Source: an uncultured Clostridia bacterium
GTDB lineage: Bacteria; Bacillota; Clostridia; Christensenellales; UBA3700
DNA length: 64,000 nucleotides
Assembly: GCA_944381275.1 (NCBI GenBank)
Contig: CALWKO010000003.1
Location: forward strand, 1-64,000
Direction of reading: 5' to 3'
The position numbers were made by a program, and so were the translations under genes. Of this stretch, positions 8,443 through 42,746 are shown piece after piece. How positions within the stretch are numbered: the first letter of the stretch is position 1; each line of letters starts with the position of its first letter. The notes beneath the pieces were generated by a model. It did no database searches, was not told the DNA's origin, and saw only the letters and a list, made by a program, of their open reading frames with translations.

Positions 8443-8454
8443 TGATATGGAAAG

Positions 8455-8693: not shown

Positions 8694-8707
8694 ACGGGGG
8701 TAAAAAG

Positions 8708-25770: not shown

Positions 25771-27399
25771 ATGCCAAAGAAAGAAGAAAAAACAAAAGAC
25801 ATATCGTTGGAAACAGTGCTTTGGAATTGCCGTGTGGCGCTGAGAAATGTCGGTAGCATGGAAAAAAAGAGGGACGCTGTTATCTCTTTGTGCTTTTTGA
25901 ACTTTGCGAGCATAAAGTTTGAGCGCCGCCGCCAAGAAATCATCGACGAATACGGCGATATTCCCGTGTTTTTAGAAAAAGTATCCTTTTACAATGCGGA
26001 AAACGTCTACTATTTAGATGAGCACTGTCGTTGGAGTTATATCGTTAAAAATGCCGGTGCGGACGACATTGCCGTAAAACTCGACAAGGCATTGGCGGAC
26101 ATCGAGGCAAAGAATCCGCCGCTCAGAGGTGCATTGCCTCAACAACTATTTGTTTCGCTCAATGCCGACAGGGCGGCAATGAAGTCGCTCATCGACGAAG
26201 TCAACAAACTCAACGAACAGAGATTTAAGGAAGAAGACCTCATAGGCAGGGTATATGAATACTTTCTGCAAAATTATGCCGCCTCCGGCACTAAGGAGGA
26301 TGGCGAATTTTACACGCCTGCTTGCGTAGTTGAACTCATCACCGAACTTATAGAGCCGTTCGACGGCACCGTATATGACCCCTGTTGCGGTTCGGGAGGC
26401 ATGTTTGTGCAGAGCATGCGTTTTGTGGATATGCACAAGGGCAATCGCAAAAAGGTTTCCGTCGTCGGTCAAGAATCGAACGCCGATACTTGGCGCCTTG
26501 CAAAGATGAACTTGTCTATCCGCGGTATCTCCTGCGATTTAGGCGAGAAGAATGCCTCTACATTCACAGAAGATTTACATAAGGACAGAAAATTCCGCTA
26601 TATTATGGCAAACCCGCCCTTCAACCTTAAAAACTGGCGCGGAGAAGATGAATTGAAGGACGACCCCCGCTTTAAAGGTTGGGGAGCCATCCCGCCCGCT
26701 TCCAACGCCAACTATGCGTGGATCTTGCATATGCTCTCTAAAATGGACGAGAGCAACGGCATTGCGGGCTTTTTACTTTCAAACAACGCATTTAACTCCG
26801 GCGGCGGTAGCAATGAAAGTTCCGAAAACCCCGAATATATCATACGCAAGCAACTTTTAGAGCGCGACAAGGTAGAAGCTATCATCGTCCTCCCCCGCGA
26901 TATGTTCTATACGACGGATATTTCCGTATCTCTTTGGATTTTGAACAACAACAAAAAGACGCATGAGCTCAACGGCAGGCAGTTGCGCGACAGGACGAAT
27001 GAGGTGCTGTTCGTAGATCTGAGGCGCTGGGATGAGAATTCCGAAGAATACGTCCTCGATAAAAATAAGAAAAAGAAGAAAACCGTCCTTTCCCGTGCGC
27101 AGATCGAAAAAATACGCGACCTCTACTTTGCATGGCAGAGCGTTGATAGAACCGACTATCACGATGTTCCCGAATATTGTAAGGCGGTGAAAATGGATGG
27201 TGAAAACGGCATCCGCGCCAATAATTATGCGCTCACACCCAGTAAATATATCGAGTTTATCGACCACGACCTCGATATCGATTTCCCCAAGGAAATGGCG
27301 CGTATTCAGCGCGAAATGAAGGAAGTCATCGAGCAGGAAAAGCAGTCGCAGCAGCTTTTGATTAAGGCATTTGAAGGTATCGGATATGGCATTGAGTAA
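25771..27399 (+). CDS. hsdM: Type I restriction-modification methyltransferase subunit
   Basis: A 542-aa N6-adenine DNA methyltransferase. An N-terminal HsdM helical domain is followed by the AdoMet site YDPCCGSGGM near residue 200 and catalytic motif IV NPPFNL near 280. With HsdS it protects the host, and with HsdR it restricts foreign DNA. AGGGGAAAG precedes the ATG. Its end overlaps hsdS by 14 bases. No clear promoter is visible in 25587-25770 (TTGAAA/TATTAT there has a 19-bp spacer). From here to about 40,770 the DNA looks more AT-rich than the housekeeping genes, a sign of an acquired island. Confidence 0.95.
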   Translation: MPKKEEKTKDISLETVLWNCRVALRNVGSMEKKRDAVISLCFLNFASIKFERRRQEIIDEYGDIPVFLEKVSFYNAENVYYLDEHCRWSYIVKNAGADDIAVKLDKALADIEAKNPPLRGALPQQLFVSLNADRAAMKSLIDEVNKLNEQRFKEEDLIGRVYEYFLQNYAASGTKEDGEFYTPACVVELITELIEPFDGTVYDPCCGSGGMFVQSMRFVDMHKGNRKKVSVVGQESNADTWRLAKMNLSIRGISCDLGEKNASTFTEDLHKDRKFRYIMANPPFNLKNWRGEDELKDDPRFKGWGAIPPASNANYAWILHMLSKMDESNGIAGFLLSNNAFNSGGGSNESSENPEYIIRKQLLERDKVEAIIVLPRDMFYTTDISVSLWILNNNKKTHELNGRQLRDRTNEVLFVDLRRWDENSEEYVLDKNKKKKKTVLSRAQIEKIRDLYFAWQSVDRTDYHDVPEYCKAVKMDGENGIRANNYALTPSKYIEFIDHDLDIDFPKEMARIQREMKEVIEQEKQSQQLLIKAFEGIGYGIE

Positions 27400-28504
27400 A
27401 TACAAGTTGGGCGATTTGATTGAGCTGGTCGAGGAGCCAAATGCCGACCTGTCATTTGGAGAGCGAGATGTCAGAGGTATGACAATCACAAAGCAGATTA
27501 TTCCCACAAAAGCAGATACTTCCAGAGCTGATTTATCTAAATATTGGGTTGTCCATCCAAATTGCTTTATTTATAACCCTCGGACTCACGGTAAAAAAAT
27601 TGGTCTTGGTTTTAATGATACAGACAGTAGCTTTATTATTAGCTGGAATAATACGGCCTTTAAGATTAAAGATAGTGCAAATTCATTGATTTTACCGCAT
27701 TATTTGTTTTTGCATTTTAATAGAGAAGAATGGGATAGGAATGCTTGCTTTTGTTCGTGGGGCAGTTCTACGGAAGTATTTTCTTGGGATGCATTATGCG
27801 ATATGGAGCTTGAGATTCCGCCGATCGACGTGCAGCAAAAGTATGTGGATATTTATCGCGGCATGGTGAATAACCAAAAGGCATATGAGCGCGGCTTAGA
27901 CGACTTAAAACTCGTCTGTGACGGCTATATCGAAGACCTGCGCCGCAAATTACCTTCCGAACCGATAGGGAAGTATATTAAGCGTTATGATTTAAGAAAT
28001 GGGAAACATGGTACACAAAATGTAATGGGTATTAGTGTGTATAAGGAATTTAGAATACCTACATCAAAAGTCAATGTTGACGAGTTGTCAAATTATAAAG
28101 TTTGCAAACCGAGACAAATTGCTTTTGTTCAAACTACACACAACGAAAAAGTATTCGCATATGCGTTTAATAATACTGATAGAGATATTGTTGTTTCATC
28201 TGTAAATGAAGTTTTTTCTACAGATGAGCGAATGATATTGCCAGAGTATCTTTGTTTGTTTTTTAATAGGAAGGAATTTGATAGGTATGCACGCTTTCAT
28301 TCATGGGGGTCTGCGCGTGAAACATTTACTTGGACGGATTTACAAGAAGTTAAAATCCCCATTCCTTCTATTGAAGTGCAAAAATCGATAGCAAACATAC
28401 TAAAAATTTGCAACACACGCAAGGAAATCAATGAAAGGTTAAAATCGCAGATCAAAGCCATCTGCCCGATTTTAATCAAAGGATCCTTAGATGAAGCAAG
28501 GTAA
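27386..28504 (+). CDS. hsdS: Type I restriction-modification specificity subunit
   Basis: A 372-aa two-domain DNA-recognition subunit. Two target-recognition domains (about 1-150 and 195-340) are separated and closed by conserved helical spacers: ELEIPPIDVQQKYVDIYRGM and EVKIPIPSIEVQKSIANILK. The two halves are related (NREEWDRNACFCSWGS and NRKEFDRYARFHSWGS), so the gene arose by duplication of one half. The recognition sequence cannot be read. The ATG at 27386 lies inside the end of hsdM. The recognition domains are AT-rich, and I see no inverted hsdS copy for phase variation in the window. Confidence 0.92.
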   Translation: MALSKYKLGDLIELVEEPNADLSFGERDVRGMTITKQIIPTKADTSRADLSKYWVVHPNCFIYNPRTHGKKIGLGFNDTDSSFIISWNNTAFKIKDSANSLILPHYLFLHFNREEWDRNACFCSWGSSTEVFSWDALCDMELEIPPIDVQQKYVDIYRGMVNNQKAYERGLDDLKLVCDGYIEDLRRKLPSEPIGKYIKRYDLRNGKHGTQNVMGISVYKEFRIPTSKVNVDELSNYKVCKPRQIAFVQTTHNEKVFAYAFNNTDRDIVVSSVNEVFSTDERMILPEYLCLFFNRKEFDRYARFHSWGSARETFTWTDLQEVKIPIPSIEVQKSIANILKICNTRKEINERLKSQIKAICPILIKGSLDEAR

Positions 28505-28522
28505 TTTATAAAGGGAGAAATG

Positions 28523-30412
28523 ATGAATACAACCGAATTAACAGAGTACATAAAAAATTATCTAGAAAACGACAGAACTCGTAGCGCAATCATGCTTACG
28601 GGTGAATGGGGGTGCGGTAAAAGCTATTATATACAAAATATCTTAACTAACGAACTCAATAAAAATAATCAAGACCTTGCAGTTGTTTCCCTGTATGGGA
28701 TAAAATCAATAGCTGACTTAAATAAAAGCATATATTTAGAACTTCGCGCAAAAAAAGCAATTAAAAAAATATCGAACAAATTTACAAACGGCAATAACAA
28801 TAAGTCAGGTAAGTTCTATAAAATAAAGGCTTGGTTTAAAAAACACGGCAAAGAGGTCGCAAGTGGCACACTTTTAGTTGGTAAAACAATAGTTAAAGGC
28901 GTTGCGGGATTTTTTAATGTGCCTGTGGAGTATTCCGATAAAGATTTAGAAAGATTGTTTGCTTCAATCAATTTGGATAATAAACTAATTGTTTTAGAGG
29001 ATTTGGAGCGATCGGGAATAGATATTATTGAAATAATGGGTTATGTGAATAATCTCGTAGAGCAAGACGGCATAAAAGTTCTTTTAGTCGCGAATGAGGA
29101 TGAAATTATCAAGTATGAAGATAATGAGCAACTAGATAAAGAGAATGAGAAAAAAGCAATAAAAGTTCCCACGAGTAAGTCAAGAGAATATCTTCGTATA
29201 AAAGAAAAAACGGTTAGCGATACGATACCGTTTTATGCAGATTTAAATTCTTCTGTTGAGAATTTAATAAAATTATTTAATAGTAAACTATCGGATGAGG
29301 CTCTTAAAACAAAAACAGCGGATGGTATTCCTCTTATTGTGGAAGAGATTGCCTGTGTTATGTTGGATGTAAAATGCAGTAATTTTAGAGCATTATTATA
29401 TTCATGTCAAAAGACATTAGAGATGTTTTTGAAAGGCGGTAAAGATTATAATATCCAATATTTCATGAATATTTTGTGTTCAAATACGGCATTCGCGCTA
29501 AAATTGAGTCAAAATAGCAATTTGAAGTGGACGGATAATTTAAAATCGCCGACTGAACTTGGCAGTTATAAGTTCCCCTTATACAAGTGCTGTTATGATT
29601 ATATGAAAACGCAGTATTTTGATCGCGAGCAATTTGAAAAGGACGAAGAAGCATTTATTAAACAAAAAGATTTTGACGTAAAGCAAAAAGATCTGCAAGG
29701 CGCATTGGATATATTATATAATTTTTACGAGCTAACGGAAACAGAAACTTCCGATGCTGTGAGAACGATATATGGGTACCTTACAGAAGACGTAAGTTAT
29801 TTTCCGCTAACGCAATATGGCAAATTAGCAAATTATTTGATTGCGGTTCGCCAATGTGTAGATGATGAAAAGATAATTGACGATTGTAAAGAACAAATAC
29901 TCAAGAAAACACGCGGAATAGTGCTCGATAGTGTAGCGATATACGATTTAGCCTATCATAATGGTATAGAATTGTGGACAGCAGAGCAACGCGATGAGTA
30001 CAATAAATTCATGGAAGAATTTTTAGGTGGTATAAAAGCAGATGACATCGATATTTCAGATGATATTTCTTCGCCCCAAGATATTCAAAAACTTGTTAAA
30101 AATATTCGCGCGAATAGTTCAAGATATATAGGACGGCAAAACTTTGCACAGCAACTTGATATCGATGGATTATTAAAGACATTGCCGAAATGCAACGCAA
30201 AAATCATCCGTGAATTACGCGGCACCATTTTGGGTGTTTATAGTTCTATTAACATAAAAGAGTTTTTAAGCGGGGATAAATTGTCACTAGTTAAACTTAA
30301 AGAAGGAATAGGAAAATTGCTTGCCGAAAATAAAATTGACGATAAAGTTAAAAAACTACAGCTTGAATGGTTTGTTAGCAATTTAAGCGATATTATTCAA
30401 AGACTGGAATAG
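28523..30412 (+). CDS. KAP-type P-loop NTPase embedded in the restriction operon
   Basis: A 629-aa protein. Walker A GEWGCGKS is at residues 27-34 and Walker B LIVLEDLER near 155-163, the LDxR-type ending seen in KAP NTPases. A basic segment and a hydrophobic stretch (GTLLVGKTIVKGVAGFF, about 115-131) between the two boxes may insert in or touch a membrane, a known KAP feature. The C-terminal ~350 residues match nothing I know. KAP proteins occur in several defence settings. Start at 28523 is preferred to the ATG at 28520, as it gives AGGGAG a five-base spacing. It is 18 bp after hsdS and 10 bp before hsdR, so it is co-transcribed with them. Very AT-rich. Confidence 0.8.
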   Translation: MNTTELTEYIKNYLENDRTRSAIMLTGEWGCGKSYYIQNILTNELNKNNQDLAVVSLYGIKSIADLNKSIYLELRAKKAIKKISNKFTNGNNNKSGKFYKIKAWFKKHGKEVASGTLLVGKTIVKGVAGFFNVPVEYSDKDLERLFASINLDNKLIVLEDLERSGIDIIEIMGYVNNLVEQDGIKVLLVANEDEIIKYEDNEQLDKENEKKAIKVPTSKSREYLRIKEKTVSDTIPFYADLNSSVENLIKLFNSKLSDEALKTKTADGIPLIVEEIACVMLDVKCSNFRALLYSCQKTLEMFLKGGKDYNIQYFMNILCSNTAFALKLSQNSNLKWTDNLKSPTELGSYKFPLYKCCYDYMKTQYFDREQFEKDEEAFIKQKDFDVKQKDLQGALDILYNFYELTETETSDAVRTIYGYLTEDVSYFPLTQYGKLANYLIAVRQCVDDEKIIDDCKEQILKKTRGIVLDSVAIYDLAYHNGIELWTAEQRDEYNKFMEEFLGGIKADDIDISDDISSPQDIQKLVKNIRANSSRYIGRQNFAQQLDIDGLLKTLPKCNAKIIRELRGTILGVYSSINIKEFLSGDKLSLVKLKEGIGKLLAENKIDDKVKKLQLEWFVSNLSDIIQRLE

Positions 30413-30422
30413 AGGAACGATT

Positions 30423-33400
30423 ATGGACTATCATTTTGTAAGAGGGAACTTTACGGAAGCGGAGCTTGAAAAGGCAATTATTGAACTTTTCAAACAGCAG
30501 GGATATACCTATCTGCACGGCGATGAAATTCATCGGCGGTTTGATAATGTACTTTTATATGATGACCTAAACGCTTTTTTGTTAAAAGAGTATCCCGATT
30601 TAACGCCGTCAGAGCTTCAAAAAATTGTCAGCAGAATTGACAATCTCCCTTCTATTCCGCTGTACGAGGGCAACCGCGATACATACCGCATTATCTCCGA
30701 AGGGTTCGACTTTATGAGGGAAGACTCTTCAAAAATCGGCATCCATATCAACTTTATCGATTTTGAACATATCGAAAATAACTGCTTTAAAGTCGTCAAT
30801 CAATTTGTTGTGGATGACGGGCATACGCGAATCCCCGATATGCTCATCTTTATCAACGGGATACCCGTGGCGATTTTTGAATTCAAAACCGCCATCGAAG
30901 AGGGTAAAACGGTGCATGACGCATGGGAGCAAATTACCATTCGTTATGCGCGCGATATTCCTGCGCTACTTAAATATACGGCTCTTTCCGTCATATGCGA
31001 TGGTGCAAATACCCGCCTCGGCACGATTTTCACGCCGTATGAATTTTACTATTCTTGGAACAAGGCAAACGAACAAGACACTGTTTCCAACGGTATTAGT
31101 TCGCTGTTCACCATGGTCGAGGGCGTCTTTGCAAAAGACAGAGTACTGAGTATTCTGCGCGATTTTATATTCTATCCGGACGATAGTAAAAAGCAGCAGG
31201 CAATCATCTGCCGCTATCCGCAGTTTTTTGCCGCCAATAAGATGCTTGCCAACATCGAGCGGCATAAAAAACCGCAGGGCGACGGCAAAGGCGGCATTTA
31301 TTTCGGCGCGACCGGGTGCGGAAAAACTTATACAATGCTCTTTTTGGCGCGCCTTCTCATGCTGCGGAAGAGCGATGTATTTCATAATCCGACGATAGTG
31401 CTCATAACTGACAGGGAGGATCTCGATACGCAGGCATCCAAATTGTTTGTTACGGCTAAAAAATATTTGCACGACGAGAACGTGCGCAGCATTGAATCGC
31501 GAGAGGACTTGCGGGAAACGCTGCATAATCGTGAAAGCGGCGGCGTATATATCACCACTATACAAAAGTTCTGTGAGGGGATTGGGAAATTATCTGAAAG
31601 GAGTAATATCATCTGTATTTCAGATGAAGCGCACAGAACGCAAACGGGCATTGGGGCCAAGCTCAAAAAGACGGATAAGGGTGTCTTTACCTCCTACGGA
31701 TTCGCCGAATATTTACACAGGAGCATCCCCAATGCCACATATTGCGGCTTTACGGGAACGCCCATCGATGAGGCAATCGCCGTTTTCGGGGATATCGTTG
31801 ATTCCTATACTATGAAGGAGGCGAGCGATGACGGCATTACCGTGCGCATCGCCTATGAGCCGCGCCTTGTCAGGGTGATTTTGTCCGACAAGGACGCAAA
31901 AGAAATTCAACAATATTATAATCGCTGTGCCGAACAGGGCGCGAACGAAGAGCAAATCGAAGAAAGTAAGCGCGCGATGAGTCGAATGACTGCTATTTTA
32001 GGACACCCCGAACGCTTGAAAAGACTTGCCGCAGATATTGTTTCGCACTATGAAACGCTGTGTGCGGAAAAGCCGGAGATCGTGCAGAAAGCTATGATAG
32101 TATGTGCCGACAGAAAACTGGCTTTTCGCGTCTATCAGGAAATTGCGCAGCTTCGCCCCGAATGGACTGTTCCTAAAAAATGCGAAGATGAAAGTAGATT
32201 CGCGGCTGAGGAACTGGAACAACTGCCGGAAGTTGCAAAAATCAATCTTGTTGCAACTCGCGGTGCAGACGATGAGAAGGAGCTGTTTGAATTGTGCGGA
32301 AGCAAAGAGCATCGACAAAAGCTGGACGAGCAGTTCAAGGACAACAATTCAAACTTCAAAATCGCAATCGTTGTTGATATGTGGATTACAGGTTTCGATG
32401 TTCCCTCTCTCGCGGTCATGTATATAGATAAGCCGTTGCAAAAGCATACTTTGATCCAGACGATTTCCCGTGTAAACAGAGTATTTGAGGGCAAAGATAA
32501 GGGGTTAATCGTCGATTATATCGGCATCAAAGCCGAAATGATGGAAGCGATCAAAATTTATGGCGGTCCGCAGGAAAGCCCCGTAGATGAATTGGAAATA
32601 TCCCTGGGAATATTCCGCAATCATCTCAAATTGATCGATGATTTGCTGTGCAATTTCAAAGCCGCAAAGTTTTTTGAAGGGGAGCCTTTGGAACGGCTCA
32701 TGTGCCTCAATTTGGCGGCAGAATATGTGCAGGCGTCCAAGGAGATGGAAACACGGTTCATGACGCTTTCGCGCAAGCTGAAGGCGGCATACAATATCGT
32801 ATTCCCTTCAGGGGAACTTACCGAAGCGGAAATTGCAAAGGCACAATTTTATCTGGCGATACGTTCCATAATCTACAAGCAAACGAATGGTGACGCTCCC
32901 GATGCCGAAATTATGAACAAGGTGGTAGAAGGCATGGTGCAAAAAGCAATATCATGCACCGGTGTGGAGAATATAGTCGATGCAAACAAATCAATCGATT
33001 TATTCAGCGAGGACTTTGAAAAGCAGCTCGGCGCCATTAAGTTGCCCATCACTAAATTCAATGCTCTCATTAAATTGTTGCGTAAAGCGATCATCAGTTA
33101 CGGGCGTGTGAATAAGGTCAAGTCCATTGAGTTCGACGAAAGGTTACGCAAAGTGGTGGAAATTTACAATACCCGTGATAAATTGGTGTTTACAAGTGAG
33201 GTCGTTTCAGATTTTATCAACGACCTTTCCGATGAGTTGCTGCGCATTTTTCATGACTTGGAAAAGGATAAGACTTCGTTTGAGGCGATGGGAATATCCT
33301 ACGAAGAAAAAGCGTTCTATGATATTTTGGTAAAAGTACGCGATGAACACGGGTTTGTGTTTGACGATAAAAAGTGTATTTCTTTGGCAAAGGAAATAAA

Positions 33401-33578
33401 AAAGCTGGTAGACGATAAAGTGCAATATGCCGACTTTTTTAATCGCGACGACATCAAAAATCAACTTAATATGGACTTGACGGTATTACTCTATAAAAAC
33501 GGCTATCCCCCCGAATGGGATGAGGAAGTTTTTGATAAGGTAATGGAGCAGGCGGAAAATTTCAAAAAGTACAATTAA
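30423..33578 (+). CDS. hsdR: Type I restriction endonuclease subunit
   Basis: A 1051-aa ATP-dependent translocase and nuclease. The PD-(D/E)xK nuclease site is IPDMLIFINGIPVAIFEFK (Asp near 138, Glu-x-Lys near 153). The SF2 motor has Walker A GATGCGKT near 295, DEAH near 401, and SRVNRVFEGK as motif VI. The C-terminal region carries the helical DUF3387-like part that binds the methylase complex. It completes an hsdM-hsdS-KAP-hsdR operon with short gaps. All catalytic residues look intact, so the system is likely functional. Confidence 0.95.
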   Translation: MDYHFVRGNFTEAELEKAIIELFKQQGYTYLHGDEIHRRFDNVLLYDDLNAFLLKEYPDLTPSELQKIVSRIDNLPSIPLYEGNRDTYRIISEGFDFMREDSSKIGIHINFIDFEHIENNCFKVVNQFVVDDGHTRIPDMLIFINGIPVAIFEFKTAIEEGKTVHDAWEQITIRYARDIPALLKYTALSVICDGANTRLGTIFTPYEFYYSWNKANEQDTVSNGISSLFTMVEGVFAKDRVLSILRDFIFYPDDSKKQQAIICRYPQFFAANKMLANIERHKKPQGDGKGGIYFGATGCGKTYTMLFLARLLMLRKSDVFHNPTIVLITDREDLDTQASKLFVTAKKYLHDENVRSIESREDLRETLHNRESGGVYITTIQKFCEGIGKLSERSNIICISDEAHRTQTGIGAKLKKTDKGVFTSYGFAEYLHRSIPNATYCGFTGTPIDEAIAVFGDIVDSYTMKEASDDGITVRIAYEPRLVRVILSDKDAKEIQQYYNRCAEQGANEEQIEESKRAMSRMTAILGHPERLKRLAADIVSHYETLCAEKPEIVQKAMIVCADRKLAFRVYQEIAQLRPEWTVPKKCEDESRFAAEELEQLPEVAKINLVATRGADDEKELFELCGSKEHRQKLDEQFKDNNSNFKIAIVVDMWITGFDVPSLAVMYIDKPLQKHTLIQTISRVNRVFEGKDKGLIVDYIGIKAEMMEAIKIYGGPQESPVDELEISLGIFRNHLKLIDDLLCNFKAAKFFEGEPLERLMCLNLAAEYVQASKEMETRFMTLSRKLKAAYNIVFPSGELTEAEIAKAQFYLAIRSIIYKQTNGDAPDAEIMNKVVEGMVQKAISCTGVENIVDANKSIDLFSEDFEKQLGAIKLPITKFNALIKLLRKAIISYGRVNKVKSIEFDERLRKVVEIYNTRDKLVFTSEVVSDFINDLSDELLRIFHDLEKDKTSFEAMGISYEEKAFYDILVKVRDEHGFVFDDKKCISLAKEIKKLVDDKVQYADFFNRDDIKNQLNMDLTVLLYKNGYPPEWDEEVFDKVMEQAENFKKYN

Positions 33579-33837: not shown

Positions 33838-33868
33838 AAAAAAGCGCCCCGAAAAGGGCGCGTTTTTT
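33838..33868. terminator. Bidirectional terminator between convergent hsdR and the TIR cassette
   Basis: AAAAAAGCGCCC pairs with GGGCGCGTTTTTT around CGAAAA, an intact intrinsic terminator on both strands. Confidence 0.85.
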
Positions 33869-33928: not shown

Positions 33929-36805
33929 TCAAAGATATTTAATCATTTTGTAGTAGCGTGAAGAATAATAGTTATCTCCGCGCGCGTCATGCCCTGTAAC
34001 AAAACGAATAAATTCCATTCTATTGTAAAGATTTAGAGCTATTTTGTTTTCGCAATACACCGAGAGCACGAGATTTTTGTCGTTCCGATCTCTTCCCGCC
34101 TCGCGGAAGAGGTTATTCAGCAACAATTTAGAAAACCCTTTTCTTCTATACTCTTTATCCACGCACACATCATTGACATAAAAGTTATTTCCTATTGAGT
34201 CGTTGAAAGTGTCCGCTACGCTTTCTATGGCAGAGGCGTAAGAGGACGGACGTTTTTCTTGAGGGAAGCAGGATTCAAGTGCAGCCCTGGCTTTTTCCCA
34301 ATTAGGAAGGGAATCGTATAAAGTTGCTACGGCAATAATTGTTCCGCGGCCGTTTTTATCGTCCGCAAGCCGTAAAAATCTGACATATTTTTTTGCGTAT
34401 ACCGAATAGCTTTTGTCAAACAGCTGCTTTATAACTTCAACGGCGGTATCTTTATCTCCGTAAAGTTTTTTGTTCAAACGCTCATCCGCATAATAGATCA
34501 AGGTGGCGGTCTTGTCGTAATCAGCCTTGTCCTTAAGCGTTTCGTAGGTGTATTTATTATTGGAATTATATGCCGAGTAGGGAACGATAAAGGGGTTCAG
34601 CCAAATGCTGCGCTTGCCTTCTTCCGCATCCGGAACGTGCAAGCAGCGTTTGATATTGGGTACGCAATAGTATAATTCGCCCACATTCAAAGATTCGTTG
34701 GAAATTATCTTTATCTGCACAGCCTTACCGTCTTTGCCGAAGTTGACGGAAAGGTAGTAATATTTAAAGCCGTCTTGAGAAAGCACCGCCTGTGAGCAGG
34801 TCCCCAATATGGGGGCTATGGCGTCTTCTATGACATAACGAGAGGCAATCGAGCCGTCTTTCAAATAGGAAAGATAATTTATAATGGCGCCGTACAAATC
34901 GTCGGCAGTGCCGCCGTTTGCTTCTTGCAATGAGGACAAGCAGGATACCACGGCGTTTTTCAAAGAGGAAAAACTCTCCTTATCAAAGAGTTCGCGCCTG
35001 CCCGTCAAATCGTAAAATTGCTCGTTGGAAACGGTGTTGCGCCTGCAAATCCTGTCGTTTAAAGCGTCAAGCATATTAAACGAAGCGTTAACTTGATTGC
35101 ACAGCTTGTCAAAGTCGTTTTTACCGCGGATCGAAGTGATGTCGCACAATGCAGTATAATCGAAATAATCCGGGTATTTAATGGACTTAGTCTTTTCGTA
35201 GAATTCCGTAAATAACGGATTTTTGCCGTCGTATACCGATGGTTCCGAGCCTTTGCCCAGGGTGCGTTCTTTAAAGCTCTTATAGCAAGAGAGGGCGCTT
35301 TCTTTAAAGTTATATATAAACGCGTTGGTATTTATTAGTTTGTTTGCGGCGTAAAGAACCTTTTGATCTCGGTCGATCTTTCTTGCAAGCGTTGCCTGTA
35401 AGTCGGCGATAACTTCAGGTATGGAATCCAGCGATTGAGGAAAAGAGAAGCTCACCTTATTTGTTGACAGCAAGCTTGAAGCCAGCAAGATCAATGCCCG
35501 CACTTTGCAATGAGTTATATTGTTGCGGTTGCGCATAAGCAGACCGTGAGAGGGGTCTGCTATCAAATCGTAATCTTGAGATAAAGTCTTGGCGCGTTCG
35601 CCGAAACGTTTGGAAAAAGCGTTTTTCACCGTTTCGTAATCCAACGAATTGTCGTTGAAAAGGAAGGTGAGCAGCTCATAAACGCCCACTTCTATCAACA
35701 AGAAGATGATAATTTCATCCCACCTGGTTATGTAAGAGCCGCAAAATTGATTGAACAGCTCGCTGTACTTGGCGCTATAAGCCCACAGGATCTTGTTTTT
35801 GCATTCTATGGTAAGGGAATCGGAAATGACGAGAGCCAAGTTTTTAATATATTTGTTGTTTATGAAAAAAAAGTTTCCGAAAAAGCTCTTATCTTCCAAT
35901 CCCGCTATGTCGAAAGCGCGAAGCTGCAACAGCAAGTCTTCCACCGCAGAGCCGCCGGAAATATACAATATTCCTTCATGCCTGTCTGCTATGGGAGTAT
36001 TGGAAAAAATCGCGCTGAAGTCCGCCGAATAATGCAAATGCACATATTTTGCGGTGATGAATTGCGTTTTCGTCTTGTCTTTTTCCAAAAGTTTGGGGTC
36101 GGTAAGATCTATGCCGTAAAGATAGTAAGGATCGCCGTTTATGAACAGCATCAAATCTTTTAAATCGATTTCTTCGCCTAAGTAGGTCAATTTTGCGCAT
36201 TGCAAGCCGCACTTGTTTGCGGGGATGCCCGTTTCGCCGTCCGGCGAGCGATCGTAAAAGGACACCTTGGCTTGATTTAAAAAGGGGAAGGCGGCAAAAA
36301 ACGAACACATATTGTCAAACTCGTATTTAGGGTCGAAACGCGAAGAGAGTATCGATTGCTTCAATAAAAAGATAGTCTTGCTCAAGTCGTTTTCCAAGGC
36401 GTTGAGGTTGAAAAATTTATTTAAGCCCAAGCGAGACAAAAAGCCGTTGCTGTCATCCACCTGCATGTTTAAAAGAGCGTTTTCCACCAGATCGAAGTCC
36501 ATTTTCTCGGAAGAATAACAGCTGTCGAACATGCTGTAAAGGCGCACCATCACAGCGGAAAATCCGCTTATTTCCCTGCGGCGATCGTCCGAAGAAAGAC
36601 TTTCCAGATTTTTCTTGAAATGCGCAAATTTTACATACGCAAGAAAAATACTTAAATAAAGGGTATTTTTCACATATAAAAGATATTGCGTCTTATCGGA
36701 AAAGTCGGGGTCGGCGCCGAAAATAATATTGCGCAAGTTTTCATCGCCGATGAGCAAGCGTATGGTATCTCGGCGGGAACTAAAAGGTTTTTCGGCGGCG
36801 GTCAT
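33929..36805 (-). CDS. 958-aa protein with C-terminal GNAT acetyltransferase domain (TIR cassette)
   Basis: A large cytosolic-looking protein. About 790 N-terminal residues are alpha-rich with no motif I recognise, and no clear membrane segment. Residues about 790-958 form a GNAT fold: NDVCVDKEYRRKGFSKLLLNNLF contains the acetyl-CoA pyrophosphate loop (RRKGFS), and ENKIALNLYNRMEF closes the domain. The acetylated target is unknown; a toxin-like role on tRNA or protein is possible but only a guess. Its start overlaps the ParA-like gene by four bases (ATGA), so it is the last gene of the cassette and translationally coupled. A terminator shared with hsdR follows. Confidence 0.75.
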   Translation of the reverse strand: MTAAEKPFSSRRDTIRLLIGDENLRNIIFGADPDFSDKTQYLLYVKNTLYLSIFLAYVKFAHFKKNLESLSSDDRRREISGFSAVMVRLYSMFDSCYSSEKMDFDLVENALLNMQVDDSNGFLSRLGLNKFFNLNALENDLSKTIFLLKQSILSSRFDPKYEFDNMCSFFAAFPFLNQAKVSFYDRSPDGETGIPANKCGLQCAKLTYLGEEIDLKDLMLFINGDPYYLYGIDLTDPKLLEKDKTKTQFITAKYVHLHYSADFSAIFSNTPIADRHEGILYISGGSAVEDLLLQLRAFDIAGLEDKSFFGNFFFINNKYIKNLALVISDSLTIECKNKILWAYSAKYSELFNQFCGSYITRWDEIIIFLLIEVGVYELLTFLFNDNSLDYETVKNAFSKRFGERAKTLSQDYDLIADPSHGLLMRNRNNITHCKVRALILLASSLLSTNKVSFSFPQSLDSIPEVIADLQATLARKIDRDQKVLYAANKLINTNAFIYNFKESALSCYKSFKERTLGKGSEPSVYDGKNPLFTEFYEKTKSIKYPDYFDYTALCDITSIRGKNDFDKLCNQVNASFNMLDALNDRICRRNTVSNEQFYDLTGRRELFDKESFSSLKNAVVSCLSSLQEANGGTADDLYGAIINYLSYLKDGSIASRYVIEDAIAPILGTCSQAVLSQDGFKYYYLSVNFGKDGKAVQIKIISNESLNVGELYYCVPNIKRCLHVPDAEEGKRSIWLNPFIVPYSAYNSNNKYTYETLKDKADYDKTATLIYYADERLNKKLYGDKDTAVEVIKQLFDKSYSVYAKKYVRFLRLADDKNGRGTIIAVATLYDSLPNWEKARAALESCFPQEKRPSSYASAIESVADTFNDSIGNNFYVNDVCVDKEYRRKGFSKLLLNNLFREAGRDRNDKNLVLSVYCENKIALNLYNRMEFIRFVTGHDARGDNYYSSRYYKMIKYL

Positions 36806-37671
36806 TCTTTTACAAGCTCCTTGGCAAGCAGTTCATATTTTTTCATGGCTTCTTCTTCGTCCTGTTCGATTTTCCTATTCAATTTTTGTTTGAGTACTAA
36901 ATTCGCCTCTTCGAACTTGAACATTCGAACTTCGCCTATTCCGCCTTGATCGAGCAGGGCGGTGTTTATGGTGTCGTTATTTTTTTGCGCGGCAAAGGTA
37001 AAGCGCTTTTTTATAAGCGACAGGATGTCGGTGATGTTGTAATCCGTTCCCTCAGCCGAAGGAACCGCATTGGGGACTACTATGTACTCCTTATTATCAA
37101 AACACTTTTTCTTTGCCAAAAATTCTTCCGTGCCAAAGCGGAACTGGCCGGTAATTCGCAGTGCGAGCACTATCTTATGAGATATCCTCAAAGCCACGTC
37201 AGAAGAGAGCTGCCCGCCTGCGGGGTTATCCATCACAAGAGCGGAGCAGCCTGCAGCTTTCAGCGCGGAAACAAAGGGATTTAACGAAATGTTTTCTCCG
37301 TCATAGTTGCTCCCTTGTCCCAAGGTTTCGTTTGAATGGGCGGAAACGAACAATACGGAATCTATCTTATCCAGCCCGAACTTGTCGCCCACGGCGTACA
37401 TCTTGCTATACAGCGTCTTGGGCGAATCGAGGGGGTTGAGATATGCAGAGGGGTTTTTTAATATCTTTATCGCGTCAAGTTTGGACGGATTATAGGATTC
37501 GTCGGAAAGGAGCAGGTAGGACAAGCCCTTGCTGTCTATGTCTAAATCCATTACCACGATCGGATGTTCGCTTGTAGCATTTAGCTCCTTGGCAAGAAAG
37601 GAGATAGTGTTATAAAGGATAGAAGAGCGCCCTGCGCCGCCTTTATAAGAAAAGAAAGATATCGTTTTCAT
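36802..37671 (-). CDS. ParA/MinD-like ATPase with Arg in the P-loop (TIR cassette)
   Basis: A 289-aa SIMIBI-class P-loop protein. The deviant Walker A is SYKGGAGRSS (residues 8-17): the signature lysine (Lys10) is kept, but the phosphate-binding lysine is Arg15. Walker B-like VVMDLDIDSKG is near residue 39, and VMDNPAGGQL in the middle is the switch II region. ParA proteins dimerise on ATP and position cargo on DNA or membranes. No ParB or centromere-like repeats are near, so plasmid partition is unlikely. KGGxGRS variants are known in some conflict-type operons. The gene is 23 bp after the 683-aa gene and overlaps the next gene by four bases. Confidence 0.8.
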   Translation of the reverse strand: MKTISFFSYKGGAGRSSILYNTISFLAKELNATSEHPIVVMDLDIDSKGLSYLLLSDESYNPSKLDAIKILKNPSAYLNPLDSPKTLYSKMYAVGDKFGLDKIDSVLFVSAHSNETLGQGSNYDGENISLNPFVSALKAAGCSALVMDNPAGGQLSSDVALRISHKIVLALRITGQFRFGTEEFLAKKKCFDNKEYIVVPNAVPSAEGTDYNITDILSLIKKRFTFAAQKNNDTINTALLDQGGIGEVRMFKFEEANLVLKQKLNRKIEQDEEEAMKKYELLAKELVKE

Positions 37672-37694
37672 TTTTTCCTCCGTATTTTATATAT

Positions 37695-39746
37695 CTATCT
37701 GCTTGCGATGGTTTCTATCAAAGCGGTTTTAAACGCTTCCGAAAGGATGGTTTTCCCCGTTTCATCATTGCTTGTGAGTTTTCCGTCTCCGTACAACCTT
37801 TTTGCCACGGGCCCCAAGGAGTCCATCTTGGAAAGGTTGAACAGCAGATGGAGCAAGGGGTCGTCGTTTATTGCGTCCTTTACCGATTGCAAATATTCCG
37901 CTCCGCCTACTGCCGCTTTGAGCGCCAAATCTAATCCCTTGTCGAAATATTTATCCAAAGTGCTCTTTAAAAGAGCTTCGAATTTGTCTTGCAGGATGGC
38001 GTCCACAAAGTCAAGCAACTCTTTATCCAAAGGAGAGCGGCTGTTTTCCGCCTCTTTCACTTTGGCTTCCCACTCTTCATCTTTTTTCTTCAGCGCTTGT
38101 TCTGTTTCGTCTTTAAGTTTTTTGATCTCCCTGTTTTTCTTGTTCAGCTGAGCTTTTTTGTTGTCCGCGTCCAAAAAGCCCTGCTCGTATTGTGAATAGT
38201 ATGCGTAGAAGGAGTCGAGAGCGTATATATAGTAGAGGTTGTTGTTTACGCTGAAGCTCTCTTTAGTCCAAAACCATTCGCCGTCCGCCTTGTTTTCCAG
38301 GATCCACACCAAATTTTCACGCATTTCTTTTTGCGGATACTTGATAATGTAGTTGGAAATCAAGTTGTAGGTGTTGCAGTAGAGGGGCACCAGATCGTAA
38401 GTGGAGATACTGCCTGCTTTACGCCAGGCTTGCATTATTACGCTTTCTTCAACGGGGCACTTGTCTTCGCCCAAAGAAAAAGAGTCTATCAAGTCTTCCT
38501 GCCTGCGGTCGCGATAGGATATATATATCTTTTTGATATTGGTAAGAGCAAACTGTATTGATTGATAGATACTCGACTTGCCCACGCTTGAATAATCGTC
38601 GTCAATGCCGGCGTTTATCAGAATTGCAAAGGTGAACAGGGAATTCATGATGTAGTTGTTTTTGCCTTTCCCTATGGTGTCTATCGAAATGCGATGCAGT
38701 TCTTTATCCACATAGTCAAAGGCGATATCCACGCCGTTTTCTTTAAGCTTTGTGTCTATGTATCTGCCGGAAGAAGCGGTGTATTCACGCAGCGTATTCA
38801 GCGCCGCCGCATTCTTTTCAAAAAATTCGTTATTGGCATTGAACTTGTATTTGCGCAGCTTATCGGCGTCGCTTATCTCGCTCAGCAAATCGGCAGAGAT
38901 AAACGAGGGTTGCTCTCCCGTATCTTTGTAATCGTATAGGTCTTCTAAAGAGTTGTATATCGAAATGAAGGCGTTGGTGCCGTAATATGTGTAATACAGC
39001 GAAGTTTCATATTCGTTTGCGTCGTTTTCTTTAGGCTTTTGAAACGCCCAGCCTCTGCACACCACGTCCGTGCTTACGCCTTTGCGAGCGGAGGGCTTGC
39101 CGTCTATCAAGAATGTATAGGGATGGTCTAAGGGGAGGGCGGCGCCGTTGAGCATATTTACTGCGTCTATGATAAACGCTTCCGTGAGCTCTCTCAACTC
39201 TCGGAAAGAAGTCACCTTCCTTCCGCGTATCGAAAGCGCTTTCATGTCGGGCTGCTTACCTGTGTTTTTCCTGAATAATTCGCTCTCCAAAAGGTCGTCG
39301 CGCAAGTCTACCAACGTGGATACCAATTTCGAAGCGGTTTCTACCGATGTCGTTATCTTGTAACTGTCGTCCTGCCAATAGGGTTTTGCGTCGCAAACGA
39401 AACCTTCATCGGTGTAAGCGTTTGCAAAAACTTTTTCTATCGTTCCGTAATATACGTCGAGATAGTCGGCAAGATCCACGCCCAAAGATTTTATTTCCAG
39501 CATTGTTGACAGCGACATGATATCGCATATCGTGCCGAATTTATCCTTGCCGCCCTTGTCGCCGAGAGGGAAAGAGGCGTGACTTTCATCGTAAAAAGCC
39601 ATAAAGGAGTTCAAAATTTTCCCGCCTATTTCGCTTGCGGATTTATATTTATAGATGATGCGTTCTTCCTCTGTTTGTGAAGCGTTCGCGGAAACGTTTT
39701 CGTCGAGCACCAAGGAAAGAGGGTTGTTTTTATTGATCAAGTCCAT
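37695..39746 (-). CDS. 683-aa protein of unknown function (TIR cassette)
   Basis: I do not recognise this protein. Residues 1-540 are mostly alpha-helical with many aromatic residues (for example ETSLYYTYYGTNAFISIYNS and WFWTKESFSVNNNLYYIYAL), which recalls helical toroid or repeat folds, but this is only an impression. Residues about 555-600 are a charged coiled coil (KKNREIKKLKDETEQALKKK). The C-terminal 80 residues are helical. There is no signal peptide or clear membrane helix. It follows the TIR gene by 15 bp and precedes the ParA-like gene, so it is a core part of the operon, perhaps the sensor or scaffold (inference). Confidence 0.65.
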   Translation of the reverse strand: MDLINKNNPLSLVLDENVSANASQTEEERIIYKYKSASEIGGKILNSFMAFYDESHASFPLGDKGGKDKFGTICDIMSLSTMLEIKSLGVDLADYLDVYYGTIEKVFANAYTDEGFVCDAKPYWQDDSYKITTSVETASKLVSTLVDLRDDLLESELFRKNTGKQPDMKALSIRGRKVTSFRELRELTEAFIIDAVNMLNGAALPLDHPYTFLIDGKPSARKGVSTDVVCRGWAFQKPKENDANEYETSLYYTYYGTNAFISIYNSLEDLYDYKDTGEQPSFISADLLSEISDADKLRKYKFNANNEFFEKNAAALNTLREYTASSGRYIDTKLKENGVDIAFDYVDKELHRISIDTIGKGKNNYIMNSLFTFAILINAGIDDDYSSVGKSSIYQSIQFALTNIKKIYISYRDRRQEDLIDSFSLGEDKCPVEESVIMQAWRKAGSISTYDLVPLYCNTYNLISNYIIKYPQKEMRENLVWILENKADGEWFWTKESFSVNNNLYYIYALDSFYAYYSQYEQGFLDADNKKAQLNKKNREIKKLKDETEQALKKKDEEWEAKVKEAENSRSPLDKELLDFVDAILQDKFEALLKSTLDKYFDKGLDLALKAAVGGAEYLQSVKDAINDDPLLHLLFNLSKMDSLGPVAKRLYGDGKLTSNDETGKTILSEAFKTALIETIASR

Positions 39747-39761
39747 AGCAGTTCTCCTTTA

Positions 39762-40769
39762 TTACATAGATTTATCTATCAGCAGATCGTCGTTGACGAT
39801 CAAAAGCAGCCGGATTCCCGCGGTAAAAGCGGAGTTATCTTCGGCGGGGGTTTCGTCAATTCGCTCGTTTTCGGCATTATAGAGCACAAGATCGCCCTTA
39901 TCATCCCTTACCCAAAAAGTGCGAAAACTTTGGGTGCGGTGCAAATCCGCATAATCGCAGGGGATGGCGCGCCCGATGATGTCGCGGTGTTCTTTAATGG
40001 TTTTTTCGTCGATTAGCCCCGCGAATATCACGGCGTCGTCATTCAAATTAAACGTTTCTTTCGTAATATTCAGCGCTTCTTCGTGGTTTACAAAATCAAG
40101 GCAATATTTTGAAACATAGTAAAACAACGAATTTTCACGGTTAAAAAGCAAAAATTCTATAGGTTCGTGCATTCCTGATTTTCCGAAGGGATAAGAGCCG
40201 AATTTCTCGGCGGAAGCCAGGTGTGAATCCCTTGTTTCCACATAATTTTCCTCACTTGCGCCGTTCTTTTTGCAAAACTTTGCAATATCTTCGGCAAGGT
40301 CGAAGCTTTCGGCAGACAGGAAAAGCCTTTTACCGTTATCAAATAATTTTTGAATATCGGCTACCAGGTCGTAATCACACAAGCTGATTGCGGCGTTCAG
40401 TATTTCTCCGTACGGTTTATCGGAATGGTCGAAACCGAGTAAAACGGGTAAAATACGGAAGTTTTCGTTTTTCTCCAGGAGTTCTTGTCCCAAGATTATC
40501 TCTTGATGTACCGCGTTGCTGGCTATGGAGTTTTTGCTCATAAAAAATATAATGCCCACGCAGTCCTTGTTTGTTACGATATTCGCAACTTTTTTATTCC
40601 ACACATCGCCTTCGGAAAGTTCTGTGTCATACCAAAAATTGACGTTTTTATTATACAGTACGTCGAGTAAAGGGAAAACAACGTCGCAGTCGCGATGGGA
40701 ATAAGAGATAAATATATACTTATCGTGCTTTCTGTTTACCCTATCGTATATCGTCTTTGGCTTATCCAA
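39762..40769 (-). CDS. TIR-domain protein with DUF6273-like C-terminus (TIR cassette)
   Basis: A 335-aa protein. Residues 17-140 are a TIR domain: KYIFISYSHRD opening, WYDTELSEGDVW in the middle, and SNAVHQEI, where Glu90 aligns with the catalytic glutamate of NAD-cleaving TIRs. Residues about 195-330 resemble DUF6273: EPIEFLLFNRENSLFYYVSKY, FWVRDDKGD and AGIRLLLIVN near the end correspond to the family's 'EW', 'WLRS' and 'GVRPA' positions. NADase activity is inferred from the family. I chose TTG at 40769 as start because GGGGGG lies eight bases upstream (40778-40783) and no ATG precedes the TIR domain in frame. It is the first gene of the cassette. Confidence 0.82.
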   Translation of the reverse strand: MDKPKTIYDRVNRKHDKYIFISYSHRDCDVVFPLLDVLYNKNVNFWYDTELSEGDVWNKKVANIVTNKDCVGIIFFMSKNSIASNAVHQEIILGQELLEKNENFRILPVLLGFDHSDKPYGEILNAAISLCDYDLVADIQKLFDNGKRLFLSAESFDLAEDIAKFCKKNGASEENYVETRDSHLASAEKFGSYPFGKSGMHEPIEFLLFNRENSLFYYVSKYCLDFVNHEEALNITKETFNLNDDAVIFAGLIDEKTIKEHRDIIGRAIPCDYADLHRTQSFRTFWVRDDKGDLVLYNAENERIDETPAEDNSAFTAGIRLLLIVNDDLLIDKSM

Positions 40770-40800
40770 AAATAATACCCCCCTTAATGACTCTAAAGCA

Positions 40801-40829
40801 ATTATATCATTAAATAATATAAAAATCAA
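40801..40829 (-). promoter_or_regulatory. Promoter of the TIR cassette
   Basis: Minus strand: TTGATT (40829-40824), 17-bp spacer, TATAAT (40806-40801), 31 bp before the TTG start. No other promoter is evident within the tightly packed four genes. Confidence 0.75.
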
Positions 40830-40963: not shown

Positions 40964-41446
40964 TTAGGGTTTAAGCGGCACGCCGCCTTTGATTTTTTCC
41001 GCTATCATGGCGAGGTATTTGTCCAGCACGCGCATGACTTCGTTGTATTTTTCCTGCGTTTTGGCAAGGAAAGGGTCGGGGACGGGGGTGTAGGTGCCGG
41101 TGGCGGCTTCCGCCAGGTCGATATACTTGCTCCGCCATTTTTTGGGGATGAAGTATTTGTGCCAGCGGGTCATGCCGATGATTATGTCCGCTTCTTCAAA
41201 GCGTTCGGGGAATTTGCGCCAAAAGGCGGGGGAGTGCTTGTCCAGCTCATCTTCGGCAAAGCCTTCCGCCAAAAGCGCGGCTTTGGCTTTGGGGTGCAGC
41301 TTCTTGCATTGGTGGAAAACCGCACCGCTCTTTATCCATGTTATGTGATTTGCAAGAGCGGGGTCGCTGTCGCACATTCGCTTGAACACGAATTCGCAAT
41401 AAGGGCTGCGGCAGATATTGGAAGAACACACAAATAAAATCTTCAT
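40964..41446 (-). CDS. Low-molecular-weight protein tyrosine phosphatase family protein
   Basis: A 160-aa enzyme. The phosphate loop CSSNICRS (Cys7 to Arg13, CX5R) begins the protein and the general acid lies in PVPDPF (Asp124), the exact layout of LMW-PTPs. These dephosphorylate tyrosine (or arginine) on proteins; arsenate reductases share the fold but have extra cysteines not seen here. It overlaps the LOG-like gene by four bases, so both come from one mRNA with the cyclophilin gene. Confidence 0.9.
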   Translation of the reverse strand: MKILFVCSSNICRSPYCEFVFKRMCDSDPALANHITWIKSGAVFHQCKKLHPKAKAALLAEGFAEDELDKHSPAFWRKFPERFEEADIIIGMTRWHKYFIPKKWRSKYIDLAEAATGTYTPVPDPFLAKTQEKYNEVMRVLDKYLAMIAEKIKGGVPLKP

Positions 41447-42003
41447 TCGCCCATCCTTATCCCCTTATACTCGGCGGTATAGAGGGGGAGTTTTTCCAAA
41501 AGTATTTTTATGGCTTCCTCGGGTGCGGAAGCGGGGAAGATCATGTCTTCAAAGGAGTAGCGGAACTTGCCGTCCAGCTTGGTGCCTGCCACCTTGGCGG
41601 ACCATCCCTCCACGCCCGTGTATGCTATGACAAGGCGGCGGAAAGTCCAGGCGAAGGATATTTCCGAAAGCGTTCCCGCGCCTCCGCCCACGGCTATCAC
41701 CGCGCTTGCGCCCGCCACGATGGCGTTGCGATAGACGTCCAAGCCCGTGGGCACGCAGATGTCCGCATAGCTGTTGCCCGTGGACGCGGTAAAGCCGGGG
41801 AGAATTGCGATGGTGTCCCCCTCGCGGTAGTTTTTTGAAGAGTGCGCCCCCTCAAAAGCCGCCGCCATCACGCCCGCGTGCCCGCCCGACTGCACGCGAA
41901 AACCGTTGTCTACCAGCAGTTTTCCCGTTTCAAAGGCTATATCGAATTTGTGTGAAGGGCGCTCTATTTTGGCGTCTCCTATCACCGCTACAATTTTTCT
42001 CAT
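41443..42003 (-). CDS. LOG/SLOG-family Rossmann protein (TIGR00725-like)
   Basis: A 186-aa protein with a lone SLOG-type Rossmann domain. The conserved GGGAGTLSE (residues 106-114) is the PGGxGTxxE-like nucleotide site, with Arg92 of VYRNAIV before it. Relatives include LOG cytokinin phosphoribohydrolases and DprA-type proteins, but this subgroup has no established reaction. It lies between cyclophilin and phosphatase genes and overlaps the latter by four bases. SLOG domains also occur in defence systems such as Thoeris, but here it belongs to the phosphatase operon. Confidence 0.8.
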   Translation of the reverse strand: MRKIVAVIGDAKIERPSHKFDIAFETGKLLVDNGFRVQSGGHAGVMAAAFEGAHSSKNYREGDTIAILPGFTASTGNSYADICVPTGLDVYRNAIVAGASAVIAVGGGAGTLSEISFAWTFRRLVIAYTGVEGWSAKVAGTKLDGKFRYSFEDMIFPASAPEEAIKILLEKLPLYTAEYKGIRMGE

Positions 42004-42043
42004 AATCTCCTATATCCCCAGTTTTTCTTTATTGTATGAAAGT

Positions 42044-42526
42044 TTATTTCACAACGTGCATATCCGTGATGACCACTTTTTGCAGCGGCCTATCCGAAAA
42101 ATCCGTGCGCACGCAAGCTATTTTATCCACCACGTCCATGCCCTTGGTCACCTTGCCGAAAGCCGCATATTGCCCGTCCAGGTGAGGGGAGGTTTCGTGC
42201 ATGATGAAAAATTGACTGCCCGCGCTGTTCGGATCCATCGCCCTCGCCATAGAGAGTACTCCGCGCTCGTGCTTCAAATCGTTCTTCACGCCGTTTGCCT
42301 TAAATTCACCCTTTATGCAATAGCCCGGTCCGCCCGTGCCGTTACCCTTGGGGCAGCCGCCCTGGATCATAAAGCCCTCTATCACGCGGTGAAAGGTGAG
42401 CCCGTTATAAAAGCCCTTGTCGATGAGGTCCACAAAGTTCTTCACCGTAACGGGAGCTATGTCCGGGTAAAGCTCGGCGTCTATCTCGCCCATGTTCGTG
42501 TTTATGACTATGTCTACCTTATTCAT
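42044..42526 (-). CDS. Cyclophilin-type peptidyl-prolyl cis-trans isomerase
   Basis: A 160-aa cytosolic isomerase. The catalytic FHRVIEGFMIQGG (around residue 48) and the GSQFFI segment with conserved Phe are both present, as is the binding-pocket FGKVTKGMDVV. There is no signal peptide with the start at 42526, which is chosen for AAAGAGGT upstream; a longer frame adds 20 hydrophobic-basic residues without a ribosome site. It is the first gene of a three-gene minus-strand operon. Confidence 0.93.
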   Translation of the reverse strand: MNKVDIVINTNMGEIDAELYPDIAPVTVKNFVDLIDKGFYNGLTFHRVIEGFMIQGGCPKGNGTGGPGYCIKGEFKANGVKNDLKHERGVLSMARAMDPNSAGSQFFIMHETSPHLDGQYAAFGKVTKGMDVVDKIACVRTDFSDRPLQKVVITDMHVVK

Positions 42527-42557
42527 AAATACCTCTTTATAATAATATGGTAGTTTT

Positions 42558-42586
42558 ATTATACACGTTATCGGGGGAAAGAGCAA
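42558..42586 (-). promoter_or_regulatory. Promoter of the cyclophilin-LOG-phosphatase operon
   Basis: Minus strand: TTGCTC (42586-42581), 17-bp spacer, TATAAT (42563-42558). Confidence 0.65.
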
Positions 42587-42679
42587 GGGGGAGAAATAAG
42601 ATTTTTATGGGGCGCAAACGCTGCGCAAACAATTACTTTGTGCCTTGAAAAAATCACAATAAAAATTATTTTTCCGTTT

Positions 42680-42697
42680 TTGTTATTTTTTTAACAA
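42680..42697. promoter_or_regulatory. Rex-type operator upstream of the adhE promoter
   Basis: TTGTTATTTTTTTAACAA matches the clostridial Rex pattern TTGTTAAnnnnTTAACAA except one base. It ends six bases before the -35 box. Confidence 0.7.
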
Positions 42698-42703
42698 ATT
42701 CGC

Positions 42704-42732: not shown

Positions 42733-42746
42733 GGTACTGCAAACGA

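Follow-up and report, generated by a model that had tools for sequence, protein, structure and literature searches.

We analysed a window of 64,000 nucleotides from an uncultured Clostridia bacterium (contig CALWKO010000003.1), in which a type I restriction-modification (R-M) operon carries a gene for a KAP-type P-loop NTPase between hsdS and hsdR. Our main finding is that the gap between hsdS and hsdR is an exchangeable cargo slot. The KAP gene, judging from where its homologues lie, is mobile cargo that favours hsd operons and is not an obligate hsd partner. We think it most likely, with about even confidence, that the KAP protein forms an independent second defence layer, expressed together with the restriction enzyme but functioning by itself.

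We started the census of the slot from HsdR to avoid picking operons by their KAP gene. It covers 19 operons with HsdR of at least about 44-45% identity and a visible hsdS-hsdR junction, 14 from 396 genomes of the same order and 5 from 398 genomes of the phylum (loci carry our own L numbers, genomes G numbers). The order set holds 14 of the 15 qualifying genomes, as G355 has no visible junction. Four slots contain a KAP gene, ten contain other cargo and five are empty (L073, L075, L077, L144, L146). The KAP slots are those of the window, L017, L015 (with a CAP12-type TIR gene as well) and L082 (with AbiJ_NTD4). Of the other cargo, AbiJ_NTD4 occurs without KAP in L072 and L074, a CAP12-type TIR gene with an AbiJ_NTD3-kinase in L079, two related proteins of 466-476 amino acids (aa) and no known family in L078 and L080, and proteins with membrane-like segments in L076 and L081. 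Three slots have a single family each: DUF4062 in L171, RelA/SpoT in L145 (in a reading frame that overlaps hsdS) and AAA_13 in L143. The L143 protein (6661-8874, 737 aa) is of the RloC type, with R-x3-E...H and a central CxxC. Several cargo proteins match phage-defence candidates in PADLOC, namely PDC-S35 (TIR), PDC-S32 (AbiJ_NTD4), PDC-S33 (RelA/SpoT) and PDC-S06 (L143). An earlier reading of the window, made from its letters only (the sequence-only reading), had proposed a defence role for the KAP gene at a place in type I loci where extra genes are known. This much is supported, and abortive-infection-type families dominate the identified cargo.

We kept 13 further order genomes, with HsdR at 33-36% identity, out of the count. 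In the regions of 12 of them, and around a second HsdR of G325, some slots have genes and others have none, and this KAP is in none. Among plasmid records with the HsdR family, 6 of 11 were examined: two have no gap, one has four slot genes, two have one gene, and one has about 500 bp without a recognised gene. On a Chryseobacterium plasmid (L139, 1543-6998) four genes fill the slot of this HsdR family: DUF4062/STAND, a SMODS nucleotidyltransferase, an S_4TM effector and one more.

Exchange of the cargo can be seen in pairs of related operons. The HsdR proteins of L078 and L079 are 99% identical and the DNA is 96.1% identical over 3330 bp from the hsdR start, and yet the slot genes are unrelated. 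L015 and L074 (HsdR 89% identical) are alike up to points 25 and 10 bp short of the hsdS stop, and the similarity resumes 11-12 bp ahead of the hsdR start; between these breakpoints L015 has TIR and KAP genes and L074 has AbiJ_NTD4. The L082 KAP is 57% identical to the KAPs of L025 and L110, whose HsdR proteins are only 39-45% identical to that of L082. With breaks this near the gene ends, and with such a mismatch between KAP and HsdR identity, we conclude that replacement of the cargo takes place near the ends of genes and that cargo passes from one hsd subfamily to another.

We then looked at the slot from the side of the KAP gene. A single-protein scan of the genome contig collection gave zero relatives and an alignment-based search gave 23 loci. 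Order-wide, 6 of 396 genomes have any KAP match and three, the window's included, have a full-length relative; all three sit in an hsd operon, with one contig cut within hsdS. The alignment search found matches in 5 of 398 genomes phylum-wide, in 23 of 391 class-wide (mostly a more distant sister clade) and on 2 viral contigs. Phage and plasmid records gave partial KAP matches only, the best of which spans 55% of the query with an identity below 33%. We defined the close clade as the 25 distinct loci above 560 bits with one common profile, counting two doubly found loci once and leaving out the fragment L031.

Eight of the 25 close homologues occupy the slot in operons of this hsd family (window, L015, L016, L017, L021, L025, L082, L110). 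L016 is cut upstream, and it opens with bases that match the 3' end of hsdS in the window; in L017 and L025, hsdS or hsdR runs off the contig. L022, with only hsdR fragments downstream, is a ninth case. Five more lie near other R-M genes: L024 (directly 3' of an hsdR), L027, L026 (a methylase-like gene judged from its translation, without a family search), L028 and, loosely, L014, where methylase and specificity genes are nearby and the specificity gene ends about 3.9 kb upstream. For the remaining 11 (L018, L019, L020, L023, L029, L030, L032, L083, L109, L111, L112) there is no R-M gene in the stretch seen, which was up to about 10 kb of flank and less at contig ends. The chance of eight slot placements, plus the one by hsdR remnants, is at most about 1e-18 under a binomial model with an assumed (and generous) 1/1000 per gene. 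The sequence-only reading had asked whether homologues always lie in hsd operons or are placed randomly with no defence link, and the answer falls between the two. The linkage is strong (9/25 in the slot, 5/25 near other R-M genes), yet 11/25 are near none, and we rejected an obligate partnership with hsd on this count.

Hsd genes are among the listed neighbours in 0 of the 18 sister-clade loci (L113-L130), many of which have a small upstream gene (about 203-233 aa) and a downstream gene (about 180-190 aa). Some more distant KAP genes are hsd-linked, with L034 after hsdM-hsdS and L085 before hsdM. In L034 (10001-13956, a Fibrobacter assembly) two distant KAP-type genes stand in tandem directly 3' of hsdM-hsdS. 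We also saw broken homologues, L018 (9998-11802) with a frame change and L031 (147-674) cut off beside transposase-like frames.

A tree of 24 of the 25 close homologues and 4 of the 18 sister-clade rows (L018, split in two frames, fell under the 600-bit limit) requires at least five changes of the hsd-slot label, all forced by well-supported branches. With shuffled labels the mean is 7.5 changes, and 21 of 500 shuffles need no more than the observed five. Gains and losses of the label are indistinguishable on this tree. In the smallest clade around the window (window, L014, L015, L016, L017) all five are R-M-linked, L014 loosely.

The window's own operon is intact at 25,771-33,578 (list of open reading frames). 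The order is hsdM-hsdS-KAP-hsdR, all on the + strand, with the KAP gene inside the operon and flanked by core genes:

25771..27399, + strand: hsdM, type I DNA methyltransferase subunit, 542 aa (Pfam N6_Mtase 2.8e-86, HsdM_N 4e-12; PADLOC MTase_I 2.1e-114).
27386 (ATG)..28504, + strand: hsdS, specificity subunit, with an alternative TTG start at 27371 (Pfam Methylase_S in two stretches; PADLOC Specificity_I 4.2e-129).
28505..28519, + strand: hsdS-KAP junction, the purine-rich and ribosome-binding-site-like AAAGGGAG (from the sequence).
28520..30412, + strand: KAP-type NTPase, the cargo gene, 630 aa (Pfam KAP_NTPase 1.1e-12; PADLOC PDC-S49 2.4e-38, residues 5-267).
30423..33578, + strand: hsdR, endonuclease/translocase subunit, 1051 aa (Pfam T1RH-like_C, SWI2_SNF2, HSDR_N; PADLOC REase_I 1016 bits).
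33844..33861, no strand assigned: terminator-like hairpin 3' of hsdR with T runs on both strands (pattern scan; 15 sites of this kind found against 8.6 expected in shuffles).

The KAP gene begins with two adjacent ATG codons, of which the first gives 630 aa and a 15-bp gap to hsdS and the second 629 aa and an 18-bp gap. The gap to hsdR is exactly 10 bp. The P-loop gene with gaps of 18 and 10 bp that the sequence-only reading described is therefore correct when counted from the second ATG. Purine-rich stretches that resemble ribosome-binding sites lie 5' of both KAP and hsdR, and promoter-like sites in the region show no excess over the shuffled expectation. The G+C content is 0.333 for KAP, 0.377 for hsdS, 0.446 for hsdR and 0.468 for hsdM, which agrees with the earlier remark that KAP is more AT-rich than hsdM. 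However, KAP is AT-richer than hsdR in all nine loci compared (9/9), so that AT-richness is a trait of the KAP gene family and not evidence of recent insertion; we rejected a recent foreign insertion judged from AT content. There is one copy of the KAP gene in the window's genome (a 1.8-Mb assembly, 76% complete).

Spacing this tight in one predicted operon is what we would expect of an accessory factor of the restriction enzyme, acting in assembly, modification balance or restriction alleviation and not as independent defence. We regard this as very unlikely, since the slot is empty or otherwise filled in 15 of the 19 related operons, where the enzyme family does without KAP, and since KAP homologues occur away from hsd genes.

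The protein belongs to the KAP P-loop NTPase family (Pfam PF07693, 48.3 bits against a cut-off of 20, residues 11-199), and its parts are as follows:

28607..28624, + strand: Walker A, WGCGKS, residues 30-35 (W, G, G, K and S invariant in 20/20 aligned homologues).
28790..28933, + strand: insert between Walker A and B, residues 91-138, not transmembrane (predicted local distance difference test, pLDDT, below 50; peak hydropathy 1.35).
28985..29011, + strand: Walker B, LIVLEDLER, residues 156-164 (D161, E163 and R164 invariant in 20/20 aligned homologues).
29531..30409, + strand: all-helical C-terminal region, residues 338-630 (AlphaFold2 of the region alone, pLDDT 85.1, predicted template-modelling score, pTM, 0.53).

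The 20 aligned homologues also share an invariant Asn behind the sensor-1 strand and an invariant NLR-type Arg; residues of this kind are called sensor 1 and sensor 2. The sequence-only reading had proposed, from a hydrophobic insert, a possible membrane-linked NTPase, and we rejected this for the window protein on hydropathy. The supposed insert (about residues 112-136) reaches at most 1.35 on the 19-residue Kyte-Doolittle scale, where the usual transmembrane level is about 1.6, and no 19-residue stretch of the full protein exceeds 1.6. Of 23 other close homologues scanned, 22 have no membrane segment, and the exception (L109) has a single borderline N-terminal stretch. Among the relatives, membrane domains occur only as a neighbour or in one apparent fusion (L032, L021).

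The AlphaFold2 model of the whole protein has a mean pLDDT of 82.9 and a pTM of 0.63, with residues 91-138 below 50. In the fold search (rows within Z 1 of each other count as tied) its N-terminal part aligns with the AAA+ proteins TnsC, MuB and ORC/Cdc6 at Z of about 13-14 for the best rows, with a root-mean-square deviation (rmsd) of 4-5.5 over 217-245 residues. The C-terminal region (293 residues) gave unspecific helical-repeat matches only (best VIA Z 8.2, rmsd 3.5, 114 residues), and we therefore neither claim nor exclude a fold for it. None of its positions conserved in at least 18 of 20 sequences is R, E or H, and we therefore see no sign of a nuclease site. Up to E 1 the protein has no sequence match to the PDB and no AAA_13 match in Pfam. 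An anticodon nuclease was rejected, as there is neither the AAA_13 match nor a conserved Arg-x3-Glu...His site in the C-terminal region. Overall, the motifs and the model describe a predicted soluble AAA+-like core with intact Walker motifs and a helical C-terminus without a nuclease signature.

The slot takes many unrelated genes and KAP homologues are also found in places without evident defence context, as they would be if the slot merely tolerated insertions and the gene were a passive passenger with no defence role. We consider this highly improbable: the Walker A and B residues are conserved in 20/20 homologues, the KAP reading frame is intact, and the identified cargo is mostly from abortive-infection-type families.

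Some of the KAP genes have a companion. A gene lies directly upstream (within 50 bp or overlapping) in L014, L015, L016, L018, L022, L026, L082 and L110, and further off in L027 (297 bp) and L032 (204 bp). The companions are TIR, AbiJ_NTD4, AbiJ_NTD3-kinase, leucine-rich-repeat and membrane-segment proteins, and proteins of no known family. In L021 (9086-11854) KAP shares one reading frame with a 305-residue domain that has about 5 membrane segments, and this frame overlaps hsdS by 4 bp; the domain is homologous to the stand-alone slot cargo of L081 (3e-62). The single frame may reflect either a genuine fusion or the loss of a stop codon. By analogy, KAP may be an effector hub in which an NTPase sensor ring activates interchangeable effectors encoded just upstream (TIR, AbiJ_NTD4, AbiJ_NTD3-kinase, membrane protein), and the ten loci with companions and the L021 frame are consistent with this. 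So is the structural neighbour RdrA of RADAR, an AAA+ ring that docks its effector via an inserted crown, according to the available part of the source (PMC9994260). RdrA also has an AAA+ core and a largely helical C-terminal lobe (VIA Z 12.0, rmsd 8.0, 270 aligned); however, the identity is 10%, ORC and TnsC score as high, and no RdrB-type partner (deaminase gene) was recognised beside the window's KAP. We think such a hub unlikely. The window, L017 and L025 have KAP without a companion, the same companion kinds fill slots without KAP (L072, L074, L079, L081), and the fusion is a single metagenome-assembled case. The pairing is thus optional. A broader version, in which the KAP family moves among restriction operons as an AAA+ sensor hub armed with interchangeable 5' effectors (TIR, AbiJ-type, AbiJ-kinase or membrane protein, once fused), is a tentative idea that we rate as rather doubtful. 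If it were true, the hub would couple type I restriction to a plug-in abortive-infection module.

In PADLOC the best match of the window protein is the phage-defence candidate PDC-S49 (130 bits), as it is for L015, L017, L021 and L082. The match covers residues 5-267 of the protein and 7-225 of the 624 profile positions, leaving the C-terminal half unmatched, so from this comparison the protein is probably related to this catalogued candidate, but divergent. The L021 relative matches one PADLOC profile nearly end to end. The PDC candidates derive from guilt-by-embedding, as described in the accessible portion of the catalogue paper (PMC12988326), and our literature search turned up no published test of PDC-S49. 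In Campylobacter, the name rlo has long been used for genes between hsdR and hsdS (PMC5183652, in the text available). Slot genes and guilt-by-embedding candidates are therefore known, and the main interest here is the evidence for slot exchange and a KAP family free of membrane segments. Tmn is also an antiphage KAP-family NTPase, but two transmembrane domains are described for it in the available text (PMC11846954). The window protein has no transmembrane segments inserted in its NTPase domain, and we set the two apart by description, not by sequence.

PrrC is a precedent for a guard (also PMC12707154). The excerpts available (PMC3874165, PMC2610378) describe it as embedded in a type I operon (EcoprrI), held by the enzyme and freed when the enzyme is inhibited. 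A PrrC-like role was the other suggestion of the sequence-only reading, a guard that responds when restriction fails: HsdMSR would silence the NTPase, and phage inhibitors of restriction would release it and arrest the cell. Like PrrC, the window's KAP is an NTPase gene embedded in a type I operon; a RloC-type protein occupies the same slot in the related operon L143, and the window's own clade is wholly R-M-linked, as a guard would be. Unlike the window protein, PrrC and RloC have an AAA_13-type ATPase and an Arg-Glu-His site. A guard is weakened by the lack of visible R-M genes around 11 of 25 close homologues and by KAPs of one clade in operons whose HsdR proteins are only 39-45% identical, that is, by cargo that moves between divergent hsd operons. 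PrrC orthologues are described, in the part of the literature available, as invariably linked, and KAP is more like RloC (8/72 linked). We hold a guard to be possible but less than probable.

We judge the independent layer most likely because KAP persists without R-M genes in view in 11 of 25 close homologues, because the enzyme family does without KAP in 15 of 19 operons, and because embedded genes in the literature work on their own or, at this position, form defence modules. TgvAB, embedded in a type I cluster, acts independently and without HsdR activity (PMC11411939), and DarTG2 is a defence module exactly between hsdS and hsdR (PMC12255303), each as given in the available sections of those papers. 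Like the window's KAP they are defence genes inside a type I cluster; unlike it, TgvAB is a GmrSD-like pair and DarTG2 a toxin-antitoxin pair, neither with a KAP NTPase. In an independent layer, KAP would be expressed with hsdMSR as one operon, the C-terminal region might sense an infection cue, ATP binding would drive oligomerisation, and the assembly would stop phage or host growth, possibly via a partner effector.

Several points weigh against the independent layer. The 5/5 R-M linkage of the smallest clade is what a guard or an R-M-dependent role would predict likewise. The window protein has no recognisable catalytic effector and no adjoining companion gene, which leaves growth arrest by KAP on its own unexplained. 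The count of homologues with no R-M gene nearby applies to flanks of at most about 10 kb, and R-M genes elsewhere could act in trans. Expression as a single operon, the sensing, the oligomerisation and the outcome are all inferred.

A convergent four-gene cluster on the - strand (33929-40829) adjoins hsdR and looks like a separate conflict system, with a TIR_2 protein (355 aa), a 683-aa coiled-coil-like protein, a KGGAGR-type ParA-like ATPase (289 aa) and a 958-aa protein with a C-terminal GNAT. The ParA-like ATPase matches PDC-M28B and NF047398 weakly, and the NF047398 match falls below cut-off. Of five same-genus genomes four hold argS, and in these four long similarity ends at or before the argS stop (window 25586); the LOG-like and adhE-like genes at 41443-45431 (names from reading translations) lie on the opposite side of argS in both G005 and G130. 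The region thus appears to be rearranged, or the contig order to be unusual. With these right-hand genes across argS in the two genomes, we can claim no clean empty site in same-genus genomes. Further along, 47430-54335 encodes a 2301-aa protein with leucine-rich-type repeats, which we take to resemble BspA-type repeats, and N-terminal zinc-ribbon-like motifs.

Near-identical hsdR genes with unrelated cargo, and breaks this near the gene ends, are a clean natural experiment on plugging second-layer defences into restriction operons. The question of guard or independent layer can be put directly to the varied cargo of a single hsd family, and the work also defines a KAP family free of membrane segments with a tractable member for study.

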